From an uncultured Maribacter sp. (lineage in GTDB: Bacteria; Bacteroidota; Bacteroidia; Flavobacteriales; Flavobacteriaceae), in assembly GCF_947500985.1 (NCBI RefSeq), contig NZ_CANMTX010000007.1, positions 62,001 through 126,000 of the forward strand: a DNA stretch of 64,000 nt. Direction: 5' to 3'. Shown here piece by piece: positions 17,743 to 63,010 of this stretch. A model generated the notes under the pieces. It was not told the DNA's origin. It worked only from the letters and a program-made list of their open reading frames with translations, and made no database searches. Every line of letters starts with the position of its first letter. Within the stretch, counting starts at the first letter, position 1. The position numbers and the translations under genes are program-made.

Positions 17743-19365
17743 ATGAATAAACTAATCTTAATCATAGCAGGTGTACTTTTCCTGTTGCCAATTAGTAGCG
17801 AAGCTCAAAAAAACAAAAAGAAAAAGCCCAATATCATTTTCATTATGTCGGATGATCATGCGTATCAGGCAATTAGCGCGTATGATGATAAACTGTTGAA
17901 CACACCCAATATTGATCGTTTAGCAAAAGAAGGTATGTTGTTTACGAATGCGAGTGTTACCAACTCCATTTGTGCACCATCACGAGCAACAATATTAACA
18001 GGTAAGCATACGCATATTAATGGAAAAGTAGATAATTACTTTCCGTTCGATACCACGCAAGTCACCTTTCCGCAAATATTTAAAGAGAATGGGTACAAGA
18101 CAGCTATGTTCGGCAAACTTCACTTTGGGAACAATCCGAAAGGGGTAGATGAATTCATGATCCTGCCAGGGCAGGGACATTATATTAATCCCGATTTTAT
18201 TGTAACCAATGGCGATACCATTACCAAGCAAGGGTATGTAACCGATATTATTACAGATGTATCTTTAGATTGGTTAAAGAAAGAAGCGTCTAACGACGAA
18301 CCGTTTATGATGATGTATTTGCATAAAGCACCGCATCGCCCTTGGTGGCCAAGACCAGATAAGTTTAAGGAATTCACTAAGAAAACATTCCCCGAGCCAG
18401 AAACACTTTTTGATGATTATAGCAATAGAGGTTCTGCTGCAAAAACAGCAGAAATGAATTTGTTGACTCACATGATGTATAGTCATGATAGTAAAATAAG
18501 ACCGGAGACTTTAGCTAAAATGGAAGGCAAGGTTTTTCCTGTGGTAGAAGAATATCCGAATAGTTTTTATGGTCCGTATGACCGTGCTACGGCTGAGCAA
18601 AAAGCATTGTATGATCCAATCTTAGATTCTATCAATGACTTTTTCTATGAGAATTGGCCGAAAATGAACGATACCGAGAAAATGAAATGGAAGTACCAGA
18701 GATATATGCAAGATTACCTAGGTAGCATTTCTTCGGTAGATGATAACGTAGGTCGATTGTTAGATTATTTAGATGAAACTGGATTGGCAGAAAATACTAT
18801 TGTTATCTACACATCTGACCAAGGTTTTTACTTAGGCGAGCATGGTTGGTTCGATAAGCGATTTATTTATGACGAATCTTTTAAGACTCCGTTATTGGTG
18901 CGTTGGCCAAATGTGGTGAAGCCAGGATCTGTAGAAAATGAAATGGTACAGAATTTAGACTTTGCACAAACCATGTTAGAAGCAGTGGGTATTAAACCTC
19001 CAAGTGATATGCAGGGGGAAAGTTTAATTCCGTTATTAAAAGGTAAGAAAGACAAGTGGACACGTGATGCTGTGTATTATCAGTATTATGAATATCCGTC
19101 TGTACATATGGTAAAACGTCATTACGGATTGGTTAACAAAGAATTTAAGCTTGTGCATTTCTACTATGATGTTGACGAATGGGAATTGTACGATAGGTTA
19201 AATGATCCCAATGAAATGAACAATGTCTACCATGATCCTGCATACGCAGCTACCGTTAAAAAGTTGACAGCAGATTTAATAGAAATGAGAAAGTACTATA
19301 AAGATTCTCCTGAGCAAGATCAGAAATACATAGATATGTACAAGAGTGCTGGGATGATTGAATAG
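17743..19365 (+). CDS. Type I (formylglycine) sulfatase
   Basis: Removes sulfate from a sulfated sugar, probably in the periplasm. The start is the ATG at 17743, which gives a clean signal peptide (MNKLILIIAGVLFLLP... ending near SEAQ); the longer frame from a TTG at 17659 does not. The metal site is in MSDDHAY (Asp37, Asp38) and the maturation motif CAPSRATILTGKH has Cys77, the residue converted to formylglycine. Blocks such as HMVKRHYGLVNKEFKLVHFYY and WELYDRLNDPNEMNNVY resemble the N-acetylglucosamine-6-sulfatase-like branch. Substrate is inferred only loosely; marine algal or host sulfated glycans are likely. No sulfatase-maturing enzyme is nearby. Confidence 0.93.
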   Translation: MNKLILIIAGVLFLLPISSEAQKNKKKKPNIIFIMSDDHAYQAISAYDDKLLNTPNIDRLAKEGMLFTNASVTNSICAPSRATILTGKHTHINGKVDNYFPFDTTQVTFPQIFKENGYKTAMFGKLHFGNNPKGVDEFMILPGQGHYINPDFIVTNGDTITKQGYVTDIITDVSLDWLKKEASNDEPFMMMYLHKAPHRPWWPRPDKFKEFTKKTFPEPETLFDDYSNRGSAAKTAEMNLLTHMMYSHDSKIRPETLAKMEGKVFPVVEEYPNSFYGPYDRATAEQKALYDPILDSINDFFYENWPKMNDTEKMKWKYQRYMQDYLGSISSVDDNVGRLLDYLDETGLAENTIVIYTSDQGFYLGEHGWFDKRFIYDESFKTPLLVRWPNVVKPGSVENEMVQNLDFAQTMLEAVGIKPPSDMQGESLIPLLKGKKDKWTRDAVYYQYYEYPSVHMVKRHYGLVNKEFKLVHFYYDVDEWELYDRLNDPNEMNNVYHDPAYAATVKKLTADLIEMRKYYKDSPEQDQKYIDMYKSAGMIE

Positions 19366-19393
19366 TTGTTGGTTGTTAGTTGTCGGTTGTTGG
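19363..19393. repeat. Heptad tract starting at the sulfatase stop codon
   Basis: Immediately after the TAG stop come four 7-nt words in register: TTGTTGG, TTGTTAG, TTGTCGG, TTGTTGG. The same 31-nt length and the same words, in another order, lie directly after the first metH piece at 35994-36024. Confidence 0.8.
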
Positions 19394-19400
19394 AAAAAAT

Positions 19401-19574: not shown

Positions 19575-19604
19575 CTAATTCAAAGTTCAAACACTTATTG
19601 AATA

Positions 19605-19703
19605 GTTATCAAGAAAGGTGGAGGGATTAGACCCTTTGAAACCTTAGCAACCCTTTGTTCGCACAAAGAAGGTGCTACATTCTACCCTTAGGGGATGGAT
19701 AAC
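19605..19703 (+). ncRNA. SAM-I riboswitch (S-box) upstream of metY
   Basis: P1 is GTTATC (19605-19610) with GATAAC (19698-19703). Between them are the S-box hallmarks AAGAAAGGTGGAGGGA, the GAAACCTTAGCAACC block and AAGGTGCTACATTC. It senses SAM and should switch off metY and probably the downstream genes. An imperfect hairpin at 19704-19733 (AGTAATCGAA ... TTCGATATTACT) may be the expression platform. Confidence 0.95.
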
Positions 19704-19740
19704 AGTAATCGAATTTTCTTCGATATTACTTTCTTATAAC
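19704..19740 (+). terminator. Possible expression-platform hairpin of the metY riboswitch
   Basis: AGTAATCGAA pairs with TTCGATATTACT (two bulged bases) directly after P1 and is followed by a T-rich stretch. It overlaps no coding sequence. The T tract is poor, so termination efficiency is uncertain. Confidence 0.5.
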
Positions 19741-28105: not shown

Positions 28106-29056
28106 ATGAGTAATAGCAGTACGGAATTGGAAGTAACCCCATCCATAGAACTTTTAAAAGATACCTCTCACATAAATGCACTTGAAAATGAGGCAATTTA
28201 TATCATTAGAGAAGTAGCAGCTCAGTTCGAGAAGCCAGTTCTTTTATTCTCAGGAGGAAAAGATTCGATTACATTGGTTCGTTTGGCTCAAAAAGCATTT
28301 TGGCCATCGAAAATTCCTTTCCCTTTAATGCATATTGATACAGGGCATAACTTCCCAGAGACTATCGAATTTAGAGATAGGTTGGTAGAAGAATTAGGTT
28401 TAGAGTTGATTGTGCGTAATGTGCAAGATTCAATCGATCAAGGTAAAGTAAAAGAAGAGTCAGGTAGATATTCTAGTAGAAATAGCTTGCAGACAACAAC
28501 ATTGTTAGATGCAATCGAAGAATTTAAGTTTGATGCCTGTATAGGTGGAGCGCGAAGAGATGAAGAAAAGGCTCGTGCTAAAGAACGTATTTTCTCAGTT
28601 CGTGATGATTTTGGACAGTGGGATGAGCGTAACCAACGCCCAGAGTTGTTTGATATGTTAAACGGACAAATAGAATTGGGTCAGAATGTAAGAGTTTTTC
28701 CTATTTCTAACTGGACAGAATTAGATGTGTGGTCTTATATCAAAGAAGAGCAAATTGAAATTCCGTCAATATACTTCGCACACAAACGTAAGACATTCTT
28801 AAGAGATGGTATGATATGGTCTGCAGAAGACGGTATCGTGTTTAGAGAAGAAGATGAGGTGGTAGAAGAAAGATTAGTTCGTTTTCGTACAGTAGGCGAT
28901 ATGTCTTGTACGGCAGCAGTACTTTCAGATGCAGAGTCAATTGATAAAGTAGTAGAAGAAATTAGAGATTCATCTATTTCAGAGCGTGGTGCGCGTATAG
29001 ATGATAAGCGTTCAGAAGCAGCGATGGAGAAAAGAAAACAACAAGGATATTTTTAG
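28106..29056 (+). CDS. cysD: Sulfate adenylyltransferase subunit 2
   Basis: ATP-dependent AMP transfer to sulfate, giving APS together with the GTPase CysN. The PP-loop SGGKDSITLVRLAQKAF lies near residues 49-65, and the family blocks HIDTGHNFPETIEFRD, GGARRDEEKARAKERIFSVRD and FPISNWTELDVW are intact. The 316 residues match the family. It follows cysH by 48 bp and precedes cysN; the spacer to cysN carries a hairpin and heptad words. Confidence 0.96.
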   Translation: MSNSSTELEVTPSIELLKDTSHINALENEAIYIIREVAAQFEKPVLLFSGGKDSITLVRLAQKAFWPSKIPFPLMHIDTGHNFPETIEFRDRLVEELGLELIVRNVQDSIDQGKVKEESGRYSSRNSLQTTTLLDAIEEFKFDACIGGARRDEEKARAKERIFSVRDDFGQWDERNQRPELFDMLNGQIELGQNVRVFPISNWTELDVWSYIKEEQIEIPSIYFAHKRKTFLRDGMIWSAEDGIVFREEDEVVEERLVRFRTVGDMSCTAAVLSDAESIDKVVEEIRDSSISERGARIDDKRSEAAMEKRKQQGYF

Positions 29057-29076
29057 AATTTTCTTTTGAAAATTCT
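29055..29076 (+). promoter_or_regulatory. Perfect hairpin overlapping the cysD stop codon
   Basis: AGAATTTTC (29055-29063) and GAAAATTCT (29068-29076) form a 9-bp perfect stem with a TTTT loop. Without a following T run it looks more like an mRNA processing or stability element than a terminator. Confidence 0.5.
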
Positions 29077-29083
29077 GCCTTTA

Positions 29084-29156
29084 GCTTTTGGCTATCGGCA
29101 ACAAGCAATAACAATAATATTAAAAGCCAATAGCGAATAGCGAAGGGCTAATAGCT
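29084..29156. repeat. Two opposed heptad tracts between cysD and cysN
   Basis: One arm holds GCTTTTG, GCTATCG, GCAACAA, GCAATAA in register (29084-29111); the other AAAAGCC, AATAGCG, AATAGCG, AAGGGCT, AATAGCT (29122-29156). Words of the two arms are partly complementary, so the spacer can fold back on itself. Confidence 0.6.
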
Positions 29157-29161
29157 TTAAA

Positions 29162-30409
29162 ATGGAAGTACTAAAAATAGCAACGGCAGGTAGTGTAGAT
29201 GATGGTAAAAGTACCTTGATAGGGAGAATGCTTTACGATACAAAATCTTTGACCAGCGATAAGTTAGAAGCGATTGAAAAGACCAGTAAGCAAAAGGGAT
29301 ACGATTATTTAGATTTCTCTTTGGCAACAGATGGTTTGGTAGCAGAACGCGAGCAGGGTATAACTATAGATGTTGCCCATATCTATTTCTCTACGGCAAA
29401 GAAAAGTTACATTATTGCAGATACTCCCGGTCACGTAGAATATACCCGTAACATGGTTACCGGAGCATCTACTTCACAAGCAGCGATTATATTGATCGAT
29501 GCACGTAAGGGTGTAATCGAACAAACGAACAGACATTTTTTTATTAATAATTTACTACGCATTAAAGATGTTGTAGTAGCCATTAATAAAATGGATTTGG
29601 TAGATTATTCTGAGGAAACTTACAATGCTATCAAAGCAGACTTTGAAGAGTTGATGGCGAAAAGAGACTACCAAGATCAGAAAATAACTTTTATTCCTGT
29701 TAGCGCTTTGAAAGGAGATAACGTGGTAAATAAAACAGATAAGACACCTTGGTATACCGGTCCTACTTTGTTAGAACATTTTGAAGCCTTAGATAGAAAA
29801 GATATTTTCAATGCAGGTACACCACGTTTCCCGGTACAGTATGTTATTCGTCCAAAAACAGATGAACACCATGATTTTAGAGGATTTGCTGGTAAGGTTT
29901 ACGGTGGTGAGCTAAGTGTTGGTGATGAGGTTGTAGCGCTTCCATCGCAAACACGTTCAAAAATAAAAGAAATTTATTTCCACGATAAAAAGTACAAAAC
30001 AGCATCAAGACGTTCTTCGGTAACGATTACGTTAGACGATGAAATAAACTTGAGTCGTGGCGACATGTTAGTTAGAGCTAATGATTTACCAACAGTTGAT
30101 AAGCAATTTACTGCTACAATCTCTTGGATGGATTCATTACCGTTGGCTGCAGGAAACAAATATATAGTACAACACGGTGTCAATAAAGTATTGGCAAAAG
30201 TGGAGCAGGTACATCATAAAATTGCTCCTGATTATTCGGGTATCGATACAGAAACAGATTCGTTGGGTATGAATGATATTGCCCAGGTAAGTTTACGTTT
30301 AAATAAACCAATTTTCTACGATCAATTTAAAGATCATAGAACTAACGGTTCATTTATCTTAATAGACACCAAATCTAATAGTACCGTAGGAGCGGGATTC
30401 ATTAGTTAA
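29162..30409 (+). CDS. cysN: Sulfate adenylyltransferase subunit 1 (GTPase)
   Basis: EF-Tu-like GTPase that drives APS formation with CysD. G1 GSVDDGKSTLIG, G3 DTPGHVEYTRNM and G4 NKMD are all present, followed by the beta-barrel domains. At 415 residues it is CysN only; the C-terminal APS kinase domain of CysNC fusions is absent. It continues the cys operon, but the 106-bp spacer after it contains an operator-like site, so the next gene may also have its own promoter. Confidence 0.95.
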   Translation: MEVLKIATAGSVDDGKSTLIGRMLYDTKSLTSDKLEAIEKTSKQKGYDYLDFSLATDGLVAEREQGITIDVAHIYFSTAKKSYIIADTPGHVEYTRNMVTGASTSQAAIILIDARKGVIEQTNRHFFINNLLRIKDVVVAINKMDLVDYSEETYNAIKADFEELMAKRDYQDQKITFIPVSALKGDNVVNKTDKTPWYTGPTLLEHFEALDRKDIFNAGTPRFPVQYVIRPKTDEHHDFRGFAGKVYGGELSVGDEVVALPSQTRSKIKEIYFHDKKYKTASRRSSVTITLDDEINLSRGDMLVRANDLPTVDKQFTATISWMDSLPLAAGNKYIVQHGVNKVLAKVEQVHHKIAPDYSGIDTETDSLGMNDIAQVSLRLNKPIFYDQFKDHRTNGSFILIDTKSNSTVGAGFIS

Positions 30410-35006: not shown

Positions 35007-35996
35007 ATGAAGGATATAAAAGAAATTTTAAAAGAGCGAATTCTCATATTAGATGGTGCCATGGGTACGATGCTACAACGCTATAAATTTACTGAGGAAG
35101 ATTTTAGGGGAGAACGTTTTAAAGAATGGGAACACCCTTTACAAGGCAATAATGATTTATTGTCTCTAACTCAGCCTGAAGCAATTGCTGAGGTTCATCG
35201 TAAATATTTCGCTGCAGGTGCCGATATCGTAGAGACCAATACATTTTCAGGTACTACTATTGCTATGGCAGATTATTACATGGAAGACCTGGTGTACGAG
35301 CTAAATTATGAGTCTGCACGTATCGCTAAAATGGTAGCAGATGAATTCACAGCTAAAGAACCGCATAAGCCAAGATTCGTAGCCGGTAGTATAGGACCTA
35401 CGAACAAAACGGCAAGTATGTCTCCTGATGTAAACGATCCGGGATATAGAGCAGTTTCTTTTGATGAGTTACGTGTAGCATATAAACAACAAGTGGAAGC
35501 CTTGTTAGATGGTGGTTCAGATTTACTTTTGGTAGAAACTATTTTTGACACGTTAAATGCAAAAGCGGCATTGTTCGCTATTGAAGAGGTCAAGGAAGAA
35601 AGAAATATAGATGTGCCAATCATGGTGAGTGGCACCATTACCGATGCGTCAGGTAGAACGTTATCTGGTCAAACGGCAGAAGCATTTCTAATATCGATAT
35701 CTCATATTCCGATTTTATCAGTCGGGTTTAATTGTGCTTTAGGTGCGAATCAATTGGTTCCGCATCTAGAGGTACTGTCAACCAAAAGTGAGCATGCGGT
35801 TTCGGCACACCCCAATGCAGGACTACCAAATGCATTCGGAGAGTACGATGAGACTCCTGATCAAATGGCAGAACAAATTAAAGAATACGCAGAAAAAGGA
35901 TTAGTTAATATAGTAGGTGGTTGTTGTGGAACAACCCCTGAGCATATTACGGCGATAGCGAAGATTGTGGAAAATTTTGCTCCGCGTCAATTTTAG
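35007..35996 (+). CDS. metH: Methionine synthase, homocysteine-binding half (MetH N-terminal module)
   Basis: Homocysteine S-methyltransferase module of cobalamin-dependent methionine synthase. It shows [11 protein letters not shown] at residue ~17, [12 protein letters not shown] near 75, VGFNCALG (zinc-ligand Cys) near 240 and the zinc pair [10 protein letters not shown] near 307. The frame stops after APRQF, exactly where full-length MetH enters the linker to the folate domain. The TAG stop is the first codon of a heptad inverted repeat. The remaining domains are in the gene at 36408, with a foreign gene between. The two products presumably act together as one enzyme. Confidence 0.93.
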
Positions 35997-36024
35997 TTGT
36001 TGGTTGTCGGTTGTTAGTTGTTGG
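35994..36024. repeat. Left inverted heptad repeat of the metH element
   Basis: After the TAG stop come TTGTTGG, TTGTCGG, TTGTTAG, TTGTTGG in exact 7-nt register. The same words follow the sulfatase stop at 19363. Confidence 0.85.
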
Positions 36025-36043
36025 ATAAAAAAATAGTAATACT

Positions 36044-36397
36044 ATGAAAGTCTATACAGAATTGGATGTTTGGAAGGAGTCAAGAATTCTTGTGAAGGAT
36101 ATTTATACTTTGACCAAGTCGTTTCCAAAAGAAGAGACTTATGGACTTACTAATCAACTTAGACGATGTGCTGTATCTATTCCTTCTAACATAGCAGAAG
36201 GATGCGGAAGAAGGACAGCTGCTGACACGATACAGTTTTTACATATTTCAAGAGGTTCATTGTATGAGTTGGAAACTCAAATTTATATAGCCCTTGATTT
36301 GAATTATATTGAGAATGATGATTTTGAAGCTATTAATAAGAGAATTATTAGCTGTAAGAAATTGGTAAATGGATTTATCAATTATTTTAAAAAGTGA
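36044..36397 (+). CDS. Four-helix-bundle protein (23S rRNA intervening-sequence type)
   Basis: 117-residue all-helical protein of the TIGR02436/S23 family, first known from genes inside 23S rRNA intervening sequences. Typical blocks are LDVWKESRILVKDIYTLTK, LTNQLRRCAVSIPSNIAEGCGR, and FLHISRGSLYELETQIYIALDL. Relatives include the Avd accessory protein of diversity-generating retroelements, a nucleic-acid-binding bundle. It lies between the metH halves in the same orientation; its stop is 10 nt before the ATG of the second half, so reinitiation may couple them. No link to methionine metabolism is expected. It is best seen as the cargo of an inserted element. Confidence 0.93.
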   Translation: MKVYTELDVWKESRILVKDIYTLTKSFPKEETYGLTNQLRRCAVSIPSNIAEGCGRRTAADTIQFLHISRGSLYELETQIYIALDLNYIENDDFEAINKRIISCKKLVNGFINYFKK

Positions 36398-36407
36398 TAT
36401 AGATTAA

Positions 36408-39146
36408 ATGAGCAATAGGTCTGAAATACTAACAACCAACAATCAACAACCAACAACCAGATATCTACGGTTGAGCGGATTAGAACCCCTGATAGTCACT
36501 CCCGAAACTAACTTTATCAACGTTGGTGAACGGACAAACGTTGCTGGTTCAAAAAAGTTTCTACGTCTTGTAAAAGAAGAGAAGTTTGAAGAGGCATTAG
36601 CTGTTGCTAGAGAGCAGGTAGAGAATGGAGCCCAAGTTATTGATATTAATATGGATGATGGTTTGATCGATGGTAAGGAAGCCATGGTCAAATTTTTGAA
36701 TCTTGTTATTGCCGAGCCAGATATTTCTCGTGTTCCCATTATGATTGATAGCTCTAAATGGGAAATTATTGAGGCGGGTTTACAAGTAGTTCAGGGTAAG
36801 TGTGTGGTAAACTCTATCAGTTTAAAAGAAGGAGAAGAACAGTTTTTACACCATGCCAAATTGATAAAGCGATATGGTGCGGCGGTTATTGTCATGGCGT
36901 TCGATGAGGTAGGTCAAGCAGATAATTATGACCGACGTATTGAGATAGCCAAGCGTTCGTATGATGTTTTAGTGAACAAAGTAAATTTTGCGCCAGAAGA
37001 TATTATTTTCGATTTAAATATTTTCCCTGTTGCTACAGGTATGGATGAGCATAAACTGAATGCCATCGATTTTATTGAAGCAACAAGATGGGTGCGTGAA
37101 AACTTGCCACATGCCAGTGTTAGTGGTGGTGTAAGTAATGTTTCTTTCTCTTTTAGGGGTAACAACCCGGTTCGTGAGGCAATGCACTCGGTATTTTTAT
37201 ATCATGCTATAAAAGCAGGTATGAACATGGGTATCGTAAATCCTAGTATGCTTGAGGTTTATGATGATATTCCTAAAGATTTATTAGAACGTGTTGAAGA
37301 TGTTATTCTGAATAGAAGAGACGATGCAACAGAGCGTTTGCTTGATTTTGCAGAATCTGTAGTTGGGAAAACTAAGGAAAGTAAGGTAGACTTATCATGG
37401 AGAGAAGAACCATTACAAAATAGAATAACACGAGCCTTGGTAAAAGGTATAGATCAATATATAATTGAAGATATAGAAGAAGCTAGGCTTGCCGCAAGTA
37501 AGCCAATTGAGGTTATTGAAGGTAATTTAATGACCGGTATGAATGTAGTGGGTGATTTATTCGGTAGCGGAAAAATGTTCTTGCCACAGGTGGTAAAATC
37601 TGCCCGTGTAATGAAAAAAGCGGTAGCCTATTTATTACCATATATTGAAGAAGAGAAATTGCTTAATCCACAGGAAGGTGATGATAAGGGTGCAGGTAAA
37701 ATTTTAATGGCAACCGTAAAGGGCGACGTTCATGATATTGGTAAAAATATTGTAAGTGTAGTGCTTGCGTGTAATAATTATGAGATTGTTGATTTAGGGG
37801 TAATGGTACCGCCTGAAAAAATAATTGCAGCTGCTATTGAGCATAATGTAGATATAATAGGACTTAGCGGATTGATTACGCCATCTCTAGATGAAATGGT
37901 TCATTTAGCAAAAGAAATGGAGCGTAAGAAATTTAAATTTCCACTGTTAATTGGTGGTGCTACAACAAGTAAAGCGCATACAGCCGTAAAGATAGATACC
38001 CAGTACAGTGAAGCGGTAGTTCATGTAAACGATGCCTCTAGGGCGGTAACCGTTGTGGGAGATTTACTTAAAGAAGAAACATCACAAGGTTACAAAAAGA
38101 GTATTAAAGATGATTATGATGTATTTAGGGAGAAGTTCTTAAATCGTTCATCAAGCAAAACATATAAGCCTATTTCTGCGGCACGTAGAAACAAGTTTAA
38201 AATAGATTGGAAAACGTCTGAGATAGTTAAACCGAATACCTTAGGTATTCAAGTAATTGATGATTTAGATTTAAATCTTTTGCTGCCTTTTATAGATTGG
38301 ACTCCATTTTTTAGAAGTTGGGAATTACATGGTAAATACCCCGCAATATTAACTGATGATGTTGTAGGTGTTCAAGCAACTGAGTTATTTGCAGATGCTC
38401 AAGAAATGCTAAATACCATTATTTCTGAGAAGAAATTAAAGGCAAAAGGTATTTTTGGACTCTTTCCTGCAAACTCCGTCAACGATGACGATATTGATGT
38501 CACCTTGAACGCAGTCCAAGGGCGAGATAAAGAGCAGTATACTTTTAGAACCTTACGCCAACAATTAGAGCGTAGAGAAGGTGTAGCAGATTATGCTCTA
38601 GCAGATTTTATAGCACCGAAAGAATCAGGGAAACAAGATTATATGGGTTGCTTCTGTGTGTCTACAGGTTTTGGTACTGCAGAATTAGCGGCGAAATATG
38701 AAGCGGATTTAGACGATTATAATTCCATTATGGTAAAAGCTCTTGCAGATAGGTTGGCAGAAGCTTTTGCAGAATATTTACATAAGGAAGTCCGGCTGAA
38801 ACACTGGGGCTATGCTTCAAATGAGGAGTTGAGTAATGAAGATTTAATTAAGGAATCTTACAAGGGAATTCGTCCTGCACCAGGATATCCTGCTTGTCCT
38901 GATCACTTAGAGAAATTGACTATTTGGGATATTTTAAATGTGAAAGAGACTATTGGTGTTGAACTGACGGATAGTTTGGCTATGTGGCCAGCAGCATCTG
39001 TAAGTGGGTATTATTTTGGAAATCCGCAGGCACGTTATTTCGGATTAGGAAAAATAAAAGATGATCAGGTTAAAGATTTTGCCGAACGTAAGGGAATACC
39101 TTTAGAGAAAGCCGAAAGATGGTTGGCACCGAATATAGTTGACTAG
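36408..39146 (+). CDS. metH: Methionine synthase, folate-, cobalamin- and activation-domain part (MetH C-terminal)
   Basis: 912-residue part of cobalamin-dependent methionine synthase. Residues ~18-60 ([27 protein letters not shown]) open the pterin-binding domain; the cobalamin domain has the DVHDIGKN motif (lower-ligand His) near 440 and [16 protein letters not shown] near 525; the SAM-binding reactivation domain carries [12 protein letters not shown] near 823. The first 17 residues (to QQPTT) are encoded mostly by a heptad inverted repeat and have no counterpart in MetH. No other start fits. Order after the SAM-I riboswitch is N-part, four-helix-bundle gene, this gene, then metF. Confidence 0.94.
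36429..36459. repeat. Right inverted heptad repeat of the metH element
   Basis: Words CTAACAA, CCAACAA, TCAACAA, CCAACAA then CCA in register; the reverse complement of the left repeat with five mismatches. It lies inside the reading frame of the second metH part. Confidence 0.85.
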
Positions 39147-39319: not shown

Positions 39320-40273
39320 ATGAAAGTAACAGACCATATCATTAATGCAAACGGAAAGACACTTTTTTCATTTGAAATAGTGCCTCCGGTAAAGGGTAAA
39401 AATATTCAAGAATTGTATAATAATATTGACCCATTAATGGAATTTAAACCTCCGTTTATTGATGTGACCACATCTCGTGAAGAAACTATTTATATTAAAA
39501 AAGAAGGGCTTTTAGATAAGAAGACTACACGTATGAGGCCAGGTACGGTGGGTATTTGTGCCTCTATACAGCATAAATATGACGTTGATACGGTACCTCA
39601 CGTAATTTGTGGTGGTTTTACAAAAGAAGAGACCGAGTACATGTTGGTAGATTGTCATTATTTAGGTATACAAAATGTAATGGCTTTACGTGGTGATGCC
39701 CGTAGCGAGCAAAAATATTTTGAACCTACCGATGGCGGACACCCTTTTGCGATTGACTTGGTAAAACAAATTCAAGAATTAAATTGTGGTAAGTATCTGC
39801 ATGAAACCATAGAAAGCGAACACTGTAGCGATTTTTGTATAGGTGTAGCGGGCTACCCAGAAAAGCACTTAGAATCACCTTCATTACAATCAGATTTGAA
39901 ACGATTGAAAGAGAAAGTAGATGCAGGTGCCGATTATGTGGTAACACAAATGTTCTTCGATAATAAAAAGTATTTTGAGTTTGTAGAAGCTGCAAAAAGT
40001 ATGGGAATTACCGTACCAATTATTCCGGGTATAAAACCAATTGCAGTTAAAAGACATATGCAATTATTACCACAGGTATTTAGAATTGATATGCCACAAG
40101 ATTTAATAGAAGCGGTAGATGGTTGTGCAACCAATAGAGATGTGCGTAAAGTAGGTATTGAATGGGCAATTCAGCAATCTAAAGAGCTGAAAGCTGCTGG
40201 TGTGCCTGTGTTGCATTACTACTCTATGGGAAAATCTGATAATATTAAGTCGATAGCGGAGGCACTGTTTTAG
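39320..40273 (+). CDS. metF: 5,10-methylenetetrahydrofolate reductase
   Basis: FAD enzyme that makes 5-methyltetrahydrofolate, the methyl donor for MetH. The TIM-barrel blocks FSFEIVPPVKGKN (catalytic Glu), ALRGDARSE, VAGYPEKHLESP and ADYVVTQMFFDNKKY are all present. 317 residues matches the family. It follows metH after a fold-back element, so it may or may not share the riboswitch-controlled transcript. Confidence 0.96.
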   Translation: MKVTDHIINANGKTLFSFEIVPPVKGKNIQELYNNIDPLMEFKPPFIDVTTSREETIYIKKEGLLDKKTTRMRPGTVGICASIQHKYDVDTVPHVICGGFTKEETEYMLVDCHYLGIQNVMALRGDARSEQKYFEPTDGGHPFAIDLVKQIQELNCGKYLHETIESEHCSDFCIGVAGYPEKHLESPSLQSDLKRLKEKVDAGADYVVTQMFFDNKKYFEFVEAAKSMGITVPIIPGIKPIAVKRHMQLLPQVFRIDMPQDLIEAVDGCATNRDVRKVGIEWAIQQSKELKAAGVPVLHYYSMGKSDNIKSIAEALF

Positions 40274-57862: not shown

Positions 57863-58906
57863 ATGGAAGAAATAAAGAAAAAAGATATTCGGGCACTAAC
57901 GCGAGAGCAGCTTAGAGAATTCTTTGTTTCTAACGGTGACAAAGCTTTTCGTGGTAACCAGGTTTATGAATGGTTATGGCAGAAAGCAGCTTATTCTTTT
58001 GATGTGATGACTAATCTATCAAAGGAAACTAGAGAAATGCTAGAGGCTAATTTTGTAATCAACCATATTAAGGTAGATTTAATGCAGCGTAGTAGTGATG
58101 GTACCATTAAAAATGCCGTTCGTTTACATGACGATTTAATTGTAGAGTCGGTCTTGATTCCTACGAAGTCAAGAACCACTGCCTGTGTATCTAGTCAGGT
58201 AGGTTGTAGTTTAGACTGTAGGTTCTGTGCAACGTCTCGTTTAAAACGTATGCGAAATCTGAATCCTGATGAGATTTATGATCAAGTTGTTGCTATAGAC
58301 AATGAAAGTCGCTTGTATTTTGAAAGACCATTGAGCAACATTGTTTTTATGGGGATGGGAGAGCCTTTAATGAACTATAACAATGTCTTGAAGGCAATTG
58401 ATAAGATTACTTCTCCTGACGGATTGGGGATGTCTCCAAAACGAATTACGGTTTCAACTTCTGGTGTGCCTAAGTTAATTAAGAAAATGGCAGATGATGA
58501 GGTGAAATTCAAATTGGCTGTTTCATTACATTCCGCGATCGATGAAATTAGAACATCTATTATGCCGTTTAATGCCAAGTTTACATTGAGTGACTTGCGA
58601 GAGTCTTTAGTGTATTGGTATGAGAAAACAAGAAGTAGAATTACTTACGAATATGTAGTTTGGGACGGAATCAACGACGCCCAAAAAGATGTTGATGCAT
58701 TGGTAGAATTCTGCCGTTTCGCACCATCTAAAGTAAATCTAATAGAATATAACCCTATTGATGATGGCGAGTTTAAACAAGCTTCTAACGCGGCCATAGA
58801 CCGCTATGTTAATACATTAGAAAAGAATAATATAGTTGTAACCGTTCGTCGTTCTAGAGGAAAGGATATTGATGCCGCATGCGGACAGTTAGCGAATAAA
58901 AGTTAG
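57863..58906 (+). CDS. rlmN: Dual-specificity 23S rRNA/tRNA adenine-C2 methyltransferase RlmN
   Basis: Radical SAM enzyme that methylates A2503 of 23S rRNA and A37 of some tRNAs. The radical SAM cluster motif CSLDCRFCATS lies near residues 114-124; FMGMGEPLMNY near 160 and the C-terminal CGQL cysteine (the methyl-carrying Cys) are present. 347 residues is normal. A 112-bp heptad tract begins at the base right after its TAG stop. Confidence 0.97.
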   Translation: MEEIKKKDIRALTREQLREFFVSNGDKAFRGNQVYEWLWQKAAYSFDVMTNLSKETREMLEANFVINHIKVDLMQRSSDGTIKNAVRLHDDLIVESVLIPTKSRTTACVSSQVGCSLDCRFCATSRLKRMRNLNPDEIYDQVVAIDNESRLYFERPLSNIVFMGMGEPLMNYNNVLKAIDKITSPDGLGMSPKRITVSTSGVPKLIKKMADDEVKFKLAVSLHSAIDEIRTSIMPFNAKFTLSDLRESLVYWYEKTRSRITYEYVVWDGINDAQKDVDALVEFCRFAPSKVNLIEYNPIDDGEFKQASNAAIDRYVNTLEKNNIVVTVRRSRGKDIDAACGQLANKS

Positions 58907-59018
58907 AAGTACAAAGTATTAAGTGCGTGGTACGAAGTGGAAAGTACAAAGTAAAGAGTACAAAGTATTAAGTAGGAAGTCTGAAGTTAGAAAAGAGAAA
59001 ATAGAGTTTAGAAAATAG
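58907..59018. repeat. Sixteen consecutive heptads in perfect register
   Basis: From the first base after the rlmN stop, 112 bp divide into 16 seven-base words without an indel. The first twelve have the form AAGTNNN or close to it (for example AAGTACA, AAGTATT, AAGTGCG, AAGTGGA); the last four are AAAAGAG, AAAATAG, AGTTTAG, AAAATAG. The three variable bases differ widely while the frame is kept, unlike a simple expanding microsatellite. No ORF spans it. Confidence 0.85.
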
Positions 59019-59210
59019 ACTTGTTGCGAGGTGTTGTATTTGGTAAAGCTAAATGTTGTTGCTATAAGCAAAAACCAGACTTAAGAAATACGAAATGCTA
59101 TGTAAATAATACCAAGGTGAAATTGAGAAATAGAGTATTTAGAAAAATGAACTATTAGGGAAATTGCTTACATAATATCTTATTACTTAATACTAAAAAA
59201 TGCGAAGCGT

Positions 59211-59299
59211 TAAAGCCAAAAGCCAAAAGCCAAAAGCCAAAAGCATTTTTGAACTTGAACTTGAACTTGAACTTGAACTTGAATTTTGAACTTGAACTT
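59211..59299. repeat. Back-to-back heptad (AAAAGCC) and hexad (GAACTT) arrays
   Basis: TAAAGCC and three AAAAGCC copies, then AAAAGCA (59211-59245); then five GAACTT copies, GAATTTT and two more GAACTT (59251-59299). The heptads are nearly identical, so this part behaves like a simple tandem repeat. Confidence 0.9.
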
Positions 59300-59307
59300 A
59301 TTTTTTT

Positions 59308-59349
59308 CCAGCAACCAACAACCAACAACCAACAACCAACAACCAATCC
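59308..59349. repeat. CCAACAA heptad array
   Basis: CCAGCAA, then four CCAACAA copies, then CCAATCC. It is the complement of the TTGTTGG words at the sulfatase and metH repeats. It lies 50 bp before the promoter of the polyprenyl synthase. The remaining spacer 59019-59210 shows nothing recognisable. Confidence 0.9.
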
Positions 59350-59399
59350 CTTTAAACCATTATCTCCTCTCGTAGTACTGTTAACTGCTTGCTTTTGAC

Positions 59400-61936: not shown

Positions 61937-63010
61937 ATGAGAACAATTACAATGTATTTAATAGTGGTGTTGACACTTTTTATGGTGCAATATTCAGCAG
62001 CACAAGAAGATTATCAAAAGAAAATTGAAACTTTAAAAGAACAAAAAGCTAAAATTACCCAGCAAGAAAAGGAAGCTTTAAAATACGAAGTTGAAAACAT
62101 TAATGAACGACTCCAAAACGGAAGTATAACGGTTGACGAAGCAAATTCAAAAAAACAAGAGGCGGCTGAAAAAAGGGCTTTGAATATTGAAAATAGAATT
62201 TCAATCATAGAGAATCAAATTAATCTTTTAGAACGTAATGAAGGTAAAACACTAGTTTTAATTGAGTTTGATACGATTTCAGATAAAGGTCTTCGTTTGG
62301 GTGTAGATATTAACGGAAAACCTGCGGTATTTTTCAAATCTAAGAATTGGAAAAGTGAAATACGATATGACAGAAGAACGTATTCGGATTTTGTAATGGC
62401 CGTAGGTCTTAATAACGCAATTGTAGAAGGTCAATCTCTTAACGATTCACCTTACAAGATAGGTGGTAGTAGATTTTTTGAAATGGGATGGCAATGGCGA
62501 ACTAGGGTGTTTAAAAACACCAATTTTCTTAGATTTAATTACGGATTTTCATTTCAGTTTAACGGATTAAAACCTAAGGATAATCAGTATTTAGTTTCGC
62601 TAGAGAATGGACAGTCTGAACTTCAAGAGTTTGAATATGAGTTAAATAAATCTAAGTTTAGAATGGATAACCTGGTTTTTCCTATTCATTTTGAATTTGG
62701 ACCTTCCAAGCTAAAAACCACAGAGAAGACAATTCGCTACTCATTAAAAGATCAATTTAGGTTGGGTCTTGGAGGGTACGGTGGGTTTAATTTGGGTACA
62801 CGTCAAAAATTAAAATATAGTCTTGATGGTGATAATGTAAAAGATAAGTTGAAGCGAAGCTATAATACGAATGACCTCATTTATGGTTTAAGTGCTTATG
62901 CAGGTGTAGATGGTGTTTTACTGTATGTGAAATATGATTTAAACCCAATATTTAAAGATGCCGTTGTAGAGCAGCACAACATTTCACTAGGTCTCCGTTT
63001 CGACCTTTAA
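61937..63010 (+). CDS. Putative outer-membrane barrel protein with N-terminal coiled coil
   Basis: 357 residues with a signal peptide (cleavage near SAAQ), a charged coiled coil (about 23-115, rich in Glu/Lys/Gln, KIETLKEQKAKITQQEKEAL) and a beta-strand-rich C-terminal part (about 130-357) that ends in HNISLGLRFDL, an outer-membrane-type final strand with aromatic C-terminal region. It is the third gene of the ECF sigma set, 88 bp downstream. No named family is recognised; it may be the sensor or target of the sigma system. Confidence 0.75.
   Translation: MRTITMYLIVVLTLFMVQYSAAQEDYQKKIETLKEQKAKITQQEKEALKYEVENINERLQNGSITVDEANSKKQEAAEKRALNIENRISIIENQINLLERNEGKTLVLIEFDTISDKGLRLGVDINGKPAVFFKSKNWKSEIRYDRRTYSDFVMAVGLNNAIVEGQSLNDSPYKIGGSRFFEMGWQWRTRVFKNTNFLRFNYGFSFQFNGLKPKDNQYLVSLENGQSELQEFEYELNKSKFRMDNLVFPIHFEFGPSKLKTTEKTIRYSLKDQFRLGLGGYGGFNLGTRQKLKYSLDGDNVKDKLKRSYNTNDLIYGLSAYAGVDGVLLYVKYDLNPIFKDAVVEQHNISLGLRFDL

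Follow-up and report, generated by a model that had tools for sequence, protein, structure and literature searches.

In a 64,000-nucleotide stretch of DNA from an uncultured Maribacter sp. (positions 62,001 to 126,000 of contig NZ_CANMTX010000007.1; hereafter the window), a gene for a 117-aa protein of the S23/four-helix-bundle family lies between two inverted arrays of 7-nt units, in the gap between metH1 and metH2, the two genes of a divided methionine synthase. On balance we judge that this copy is probably a mobile cassette resident in an operon, and a non-rRNA relative of the intervening sequences of 23S rRNA; the idea that such an element had split the methionine synthase gene is corrected by the present results. 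The source genome amounts to 4.25 Mb in 42 contigs.

Inverted heptamer arms around four-helix genes

The initial annotation had described a four-helix gene between 31-nt inverted repeats, and this description stands: the protein scores 135.5 bits against TIGR02436 (cut-off 24) and 139.6 bits against PF05635 (cut-off 33.8), and the arms are identical at 26 of 31 positions, a separate repeat search returning 27 nt at 89%. The right arm extends one base beyond the interval given earlier (35994..36458), and the arm-to-arm length here is 466 bp. For the flank score, each upstream flank was compared with its reverse-complemented downstream counterpart, with the 95th percentile of mispaired flanks as reference and with control genes from one genome only (464 kb of the window's own). 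The window element scores 39, and a score of 24 is reached by none of the 51 small and 13 of the 331 larger control genes; the arm pair around the window gene is not a matter of chance.

Loci were collected through genus, family, phylum and cross-phylum searches, the 260 matches being reduced to 224 distinct loci (16 duplicates, 8 short flanks and 12 short open reading frames, ORFs, were dropped). Inverted flanks exceed the reference in 87 of the 122 genus and family loci, 59 of the 74 named loci and 21 of the 28 phylum loci, while in direct orientation the same percentile is exceeded in 4, 12 and 3 of them, respectively; a different random mispairing left 73 of the 122 genus and family loci above the threshold. 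Scores of at least 24 are found at 156 of the 224 loci and, after thinning at 60% identity, at 61 of 89. Arms and four-helix gene co-occur with a fixed geometry in several phyla, the armed loci including records labelled Clostridia, Planctomycetales, Ignavibacteriae, Chloroflexi, Omnitrophica, Cloacimonadota and Methanophagales (metagenome labels may err), and no rRNA appeared at Rfam gathering scores in the 20 scanned of the 27 loci without the usual neighbours.

Plasmid records were matched in 31 cases, and in the 16 examined, all cyanobacterial, nine loci have arms above the mispaired 95th percentile, with units that include TAGGGAG, GGGAAAA, AGGTGAC and AGCTTTT. Two loci of this set form a copy pair (L391, L392), and three others resemble one another and all score below the threshold (L402, L404, L405); two cas6/cas4 gaps (L390, L401) have different heptamers. 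As a separate observation, operons of clustered regularly interspaced short palindromic repeats (CRISPR) on cyanobacterial plasmids house four-helix genes both at these two gaps and, at L397, in a cas10/cmr3-like one.

The arms are quasi-tandem arrays of 7-nt units: when 65 arms of the thinned loci are compared with themselves, the match reaches 0.637 at lag 7 and 0.645 at lag 14, against about 0.32 after shuffling, and the best lag is 7 in 52 arms, 8 in 12 and 9 in one. On the strand that reads inward, both ends are rich in G (left arm with G above C in 61 of 70). The units vary among copies, and the two arms within a copy match; arms pair better with their own partner than with one swapped within the site for metH (28 loci of mixed types, p 1e-4) and for the ruvC/hemW subfamily MQF (12 loci, p 0.009). 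Arms diverge faster than the protein, and their similarity falls to about background below 50% protein identity; most of the listed different-site pairs above 60% identity come from two adjacent gaps of the met cluster. A pairing of each protein with a particular arm sequence was considered and set aside, as arms are alike only among close proteins.

Placement and occupancy of operon gaps

With neighbouring genes called by a simple ORF rule, 197 of the 224 loci lie in sense between co-directional genes, the others being three in antisense within a co-directional gap, 13 in convergent or divergent gaps and 11 with an unread side; control genes are so placed in 216 of 371 cases overall and in 25 of the 51 small ones. 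After thinning, 68 of the 81 loci read on both sides keep the sense placement (Fisher p 7e-6). At loci scoring at least 24 the median distance between the outer edge of the arm and the neighbouring gene is 3 nt on the upstream side, measured to the stop (n 143), and 7.5 nt on the downstream side, measured to the start (n 144); the median cassette span is 457.

The window's own genome has two further four-helix copies, at hemE/hemD and at ruvC/hemW (gene names by eye), and its three copies carry three heptamer families. It had been expected that other four-helix genes of the species would be flanked by the same repeats, which proved right for the inverted heptamer arms, present at both, and wrong for the arm sequence, which belongs to other families. 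Within the genus the metH gap holds at least three cassette types, each with its own arms, and at L038, L041 and L042 the outer left end of one type appears, by eye, joined to the body of another inside the heptamers. The ruvC/hemW site is empty in seven of 30 junctions (11-68 nt) and filled in 23 (394-557 nt), one of the latter (L320) having no intact gene. The fillers belong to two subfamilies of about 25% mutual identity, which the midpoint-rooted protein tree places on one side, joined by long branches. At L340 both arms come from a heptamer family unlike that of its relatives, and the gene has an internal stop.

The divided methionine synthase

The coordinates of the element and its neighbours are collected in Table 1.

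Table 1. Features in and around the metH1/metH2 gap, in positions of the window
Feature	Position	Strand	Basis
metH1, homocysteine S-methyltransferase part of methionine synthase, 329 aa	35007..35996	+	PF02574 E 1.3e-101; TIGR02082 positions 1-319
Left arm, quasi-tandem GTTGTTG heptamers, from metH1 stop codon on	35994..36024	+	26/31 identical with right arm
S23/four-helix-bundle gene, 117 aa	36044..36397	+	TIGR02436 135.5 bits; PF05635 E 5.1e-41; dN/dS (see text)
Right arm, inverted CAACAAC heptamers, in frame within called metH2 ORF	36429..36459	+	
metH2, remainder of methionine synthase, 912 aa as called	36408..39146	+	NF007024 1500.8 bits; TIGR02082 positions 316-1181
metF-like gene, next in cluster	39320..40273	+	ORF; homologues follow metH2 in relatives

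The last of these genes we take to be metF-like; in six relatives a four-helix gene precedes it. The conserved part of metH2 starts at 36459, the called ATG lying at 36408, so that in the ORF as called the right arm would encode a putative N-terminal tail preceding [11 protein letters not shown].

The initial annotation had suggested that insertion of the element divided a formerly intact metH, from the observation that removal of 465 bp joins the frames of metH1 and metH2 without a stop into a single one of 1224 codons. On recomputing the join this frame was found again, at the border between the two model parts; frame agreement at such a join has a chance expectation of one in three. As its own refutation the annotation had named relatives that lack the element and still keep two separate metH genes, and such relatives are what was found. 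In the genus, a four-helix gene is present at 19 of 30 junctions and absent from 10, where the genes are still separate, with 14-52 nt between the metH1 stop and the region where conserved metH2 starts (the remaining one, L038, runs off its contig, yet holds a four-helix gene). Other genera of the family gave 29 junctions, three with a four-helix gene, 25 without (gaps of 11-1029 nt, some with a different small gene) and one unreadable; in another family of the class, 20 junctions comprised four fused, 14 split without a four-helix gene, one unread and one (L376) in which a different kind of four-helix gene accompanies the split. Fused genes thus number four among 79 junctions, all in the other family. 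These loci were obtained from 30 of the 35 genus genomes with a MetH1 match and from 30 of 47 in the family, where 47 of 60 genomes have such a match, one of them a 23-residue fragment; none of the 46 strong family matches has a frame of fused size, their open frames measuring 331-372 aa. A repetition of the metH gap counts with a hidden Markov model left them unchanged.

Because element-free congeners and other genera keep the two genes apart, the separation of metH1 and metH2 predates the element, which occupies an existing gap. An insertion into an intact metH is therefore refuted for this genus, and we give it next to no credence here; an older insertion, lost before the family arose, may have taken place. 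In six loci of other genera (L344, L349, L351, L353-L355) the metH gap has about 300 nt resembling another small gene, and hence it tolerates insertions generally.

The four-helix protein

The protein is under purifying selection: seven groups, each of 5-12 sequences, have median ratios of nonsynonymous to synonymous substitution rates (dN/dS) of 0.04-0.13, with 0.11 in the group of the window gene (6 congeneric sequences, 11 pairs). In a midpoint-rooted tree of 223 loci, one clade of 42 rows (Shimodaira-Hasegawa-like approximate likelihood ratio test, SH-aLRT, 92) unites 34 met-operon copies, located in the metH1/metH2/metF cluster of several genera, with eight others. Among the latter, L185 and L190 lie between genes for enoyl-CoA hydratase and 3-hydroxyacyl-CoA dehydrogenase and L188 downstream of a fabG-like gene (names by eye); L188 and L190, at these unrelated sites, have GTTG-type arms, L185 has a weak arm pair and L191 other units.

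By sequence, relatives with solved structures are 2gsc and 2rld. The protein shows weak similarity to Avd, the accessory protein of diversity-generating retroelements, at 24.1 bits for NF033474 (cut-off 80) and 21.8 bits for PF22296 (cut-off 40), which places it outside both families. A reverse-transcriptase partner was sought and discarded, PF00078 having no match in the window's own genome, though it has one in 20 of the 36 genus genomes. A role as a defence gene was likewise dropped, no family among the PADLOC anti-phage defence models matching this single protein, and a search for carriage by phages gave no match for it at E 1e-5.

Heptamer arrays without the gene

In 36 genomes of the genus, array counts increase with four-helix copy number, without kinship correction, both for GTTG (rho 0.39, p 0.018) and for CAGT (rho 0.55, p 0.0005); the two genomes without four-helix genes have no arrays of either family. 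GTTG arrays are more numerous in genomes with a filled than with an empty metH gap (p 0.015), and two genomes with an empty gap still have 23 and 31 of them. The CAGT pattern is found in 237 arrays and its reverse in 56; the reversed GTTG pattern reads nearly alike and gives no usable control.

Further heptamer arrays were noted. In the window, a short AGCTTTT-type heptamer hairpin without a four-helix gene (29045-29173; inverted-repeat score 21, lag-7 self-match 0.75) lies in the gap before a gene resembling GTP-binding sulfate adenylyltransferase (name by eye), a GTTGTTG array without an obvious second arm, possibly a solo arm, runs from a stop codon on (19361-19395), and a single intergenic region (58897-59353) has successive arrays of AGTACAA, AAAGCCA, GAACTT and CAACCAA. 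Elsewhere, the 98-nt metH gap of L361 has an inverted AGCTTTT-type hairpin without the gene (by eye), the dinB-like/dnaE-like gap of L004 (G000:C2; names by eye) has inverted heptamers at both ends with no four-helix gene seen, and a congener has about 80 perfect GTTGTTG-type heptamers in succession (G002:C1:569393-569972). A stretch at 19600-19720 of the window resembles, by eye only, an S-adenosylmethionine (SAM) riboswitch.

Discussion

The window copy occupies, in sense, a short gap between two genes, metH1 and metH2, that were separate before it; if it is a mobile cassette, as we are inclined to believe, it would rely on the transcription of its host operon. The protein, oligomeric in a relative, could act on the heptamer arrays; the arms would be kept matched either by copying or by mutual pairing, and the cassettes would replace each other through recombination within the heptamers. 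This reading is favoured by the empty and filled sites at metH and ruvC/hemW, the inverted flanks with their 7-nt period, the sense placement close to the neighbouring genes, the GTTG-type arms of met-clade members at unrelated sites, the two subfamilies filling ruvC/hemW, the hybrid arms seen by eye, the better pairing of a copy's own arms, the low dN/dS and the rise of array counts with copy number.

Several points weigh against this reading: (i) no movement has been seen, and neither a target duplication nor an enzyme has been identified, no test having been aimed at duplications; (ii) 68 of the 224 loci score below 24, and within the met clade L192 and L196 are without arms above the threshold and L212 and L261 have other units; (iii) the comparison with swapped arms is not significant for the ruvC/hemW subfamily MNN (7 loci, p 0.125) or for hemE/hemD (8, p 0.28), and its metH set mixes types; (iv) unrelated arms occur on proteins that are 40-50% identical, which makes sequence-specific recognition doubtful; (v) the tree leaves a common origin of the two ruvC/hemW subfamilies possible; (vi) heptamer arrays also exist without a four-helix gene, their correlations with copy number take no account of kinship, and the array family searched for is missing from four and nine genomes that do have four-helix genes; and (vii) in the accessible part of PMC4692102, the Nostoc genome has few inverted pairs and none of the heptamer repeats on its plasmids, and the repeats show generally no link to mobile elements; the Nostoc result counts also against the extension that follows.

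A wider proposal, which we put forward tentatively and ourselves hold doubtful, is that S23/four-helix proteins make or spread the heptamer repeats of bacteria. The solo arrays of Bacteroidota, Cyanobacteria, Xanthomonas and the giant sulfur bacteria would then be solo arms or scars, and the protein would act on any 7-nt array of sufficient periodicity, whatever its sequence, carrying its gene, bracketed by inverted arrays, into the gaps of operons. Two things that have been unexplained, the protein family and the heptamer repeats, occur together, and hence each can be tested through the other. Should the protein recognise arrays through their period rather than their sequence, such a mode of recognition would be unfamiliar; the cassettes, if they are what we propose, would constitute a class of mobile genes that is widespread and resides in the gaps of operons.

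The main rival places the function of the arms in the RNA: they would pair in the operon transcript, and a cut by RNase III or an enzyme like it would free the four-helix mRNA and part those of the neighbouring cistrons, as in 23S rRNA. We regard this as possible, though unlikely. The predicted fold pairs the arms (-122.9 kcal/mol, z -5.4), the sense placement in operons suits it, and the rRNA elements with a protein of this family end in inverted repeats and are cut by RNase III, according to the portion of PMC4990558 at hand. However, a selected sense stem should show more G.U mismatches in sense than in antisense, and this excess is absent, with 131 against 169 in 156 loci and 56 against 73 in 70 thinned loci, so that selection on a sense RNA stem finds no support from the two kinds of wobble mismatch; the test is a weak one, because neighbouring heptamers within an array are not identical. 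Moreover, the three loci in antisense within co-directional gaps score 25-73, and two of the three antisense plasmid loci have arms (L393 and L395, not L394). Thus, of the earlier suggestion of an mRNA counterpart to rRNA intervening sequences, the architecture is retained (protein family, inverted ends, sense placement in operons), while the G.U excess is missing and the pairing is a prediction.

That the gene belongs to the host as part of the methionine operon, for example as a nucleic-acid-binding regulator with the arms as its binding sites, would agree with the purifying selection and with the 34 loci of one clade in the metH1/metH2/metF cluster of several genera. We nevertheless find it improbable, since the gene is absent from 25 of the 29 metH1/metH2 junctions outside the genus (where the metH2/metF gap was not surveyed), members of the clade occur at the enoyl-CoA hydratase and fabG-like genes, and other subfamilies show the same anatomy in other operons. 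Quite improbable, too, is an ordinary DNA transposon or miniature inverted-repeat transposable element (MITE) moved by an enzyme acting in trans, as would be suggested by the inverted ends, the empty sites and the gene-free hairpins: the ends differ among orthologues and among the three copies of the genome, whose three heptamer families leave no shared terminal inverted repeat, and the sense bias is strong. The arms could, finally, be products of replication slippage that happen to surround a gene, heptamer arrays being frequent between genes (464 kb of the window's own genome has 17 intergenic and 7 coding ones), which we consider very improbable, inverted heptamer pairs being rare elsewhere (one clear pair among 216 gaps, and none of 51 small genes at a score of 24, versus 156 of 224).

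Comparison with known systems

We know of no agreed origin for intergenic heptamer repeats. A further class of them is the short tandemly repeated repetitive (STRR) sequences of cyanobacteria. MITEs and short palindromic elements are short and intergenic, with inverted ends; the cassettes differ from both in that they lack a fixed end sequence, code for a protein and are oriented in sense within operons.

In the literature we found no link between the S23/four-helix family and heptamer arms in operons, the subscription papers being thinly covered, and a word search of the texts of PMC4679880 and PMC4692102 gave no mention of S23 or four helix. The function of the protein family of rRNA intervening sequences is given as not known in the available parts of PMC4990558 and PMC11270868. 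The heptamer repeats TAACTGA (PMC4679880) and GGGAATC and GGGGA(C/T)T (PMC4692102) share, in the sections consulted of both papers, the 7-nt unit and a mostly intergenic position with those described here. In these same sections, TAACTGA is found mostly just upstream of start codons, and in some Bacteroidetes and Cyanobacteria as well (PMC4679880), and the repeats of Xanthomonas and Nostoc occupy the gaps of aligned ORFs, where they follow stop codons in sense and precede ORFs in antisense; inverted pairs number 70 in one Xanthomonas genome and are few in the Nostoc one (PMC4692102). The arrays of the present elements differ in that they bracket a gene.

A close likeness is to the 23S rRNA intervening sequence of Coxiella with its S23p ORF, with which the window element has in common, as far as the excerpt of PMC4990558 goes, the protein family, a similar size (428 nt in Coxiella) and complementary ends, here identical in inverted orientation at 26 of 31 positions and forming a predicted stem; up to three tandem heptamers precede the S23p ORF there (PMC4990558). 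The Coxiella element is within 23S rRNA, whereas the one described here is flanked by metH1 and metH2, between the protein genes of an operon, and the S23p protein is reported in that excerpt as probably not made in vivo (PMC4990558), in contrast to the purifying selection observed here.

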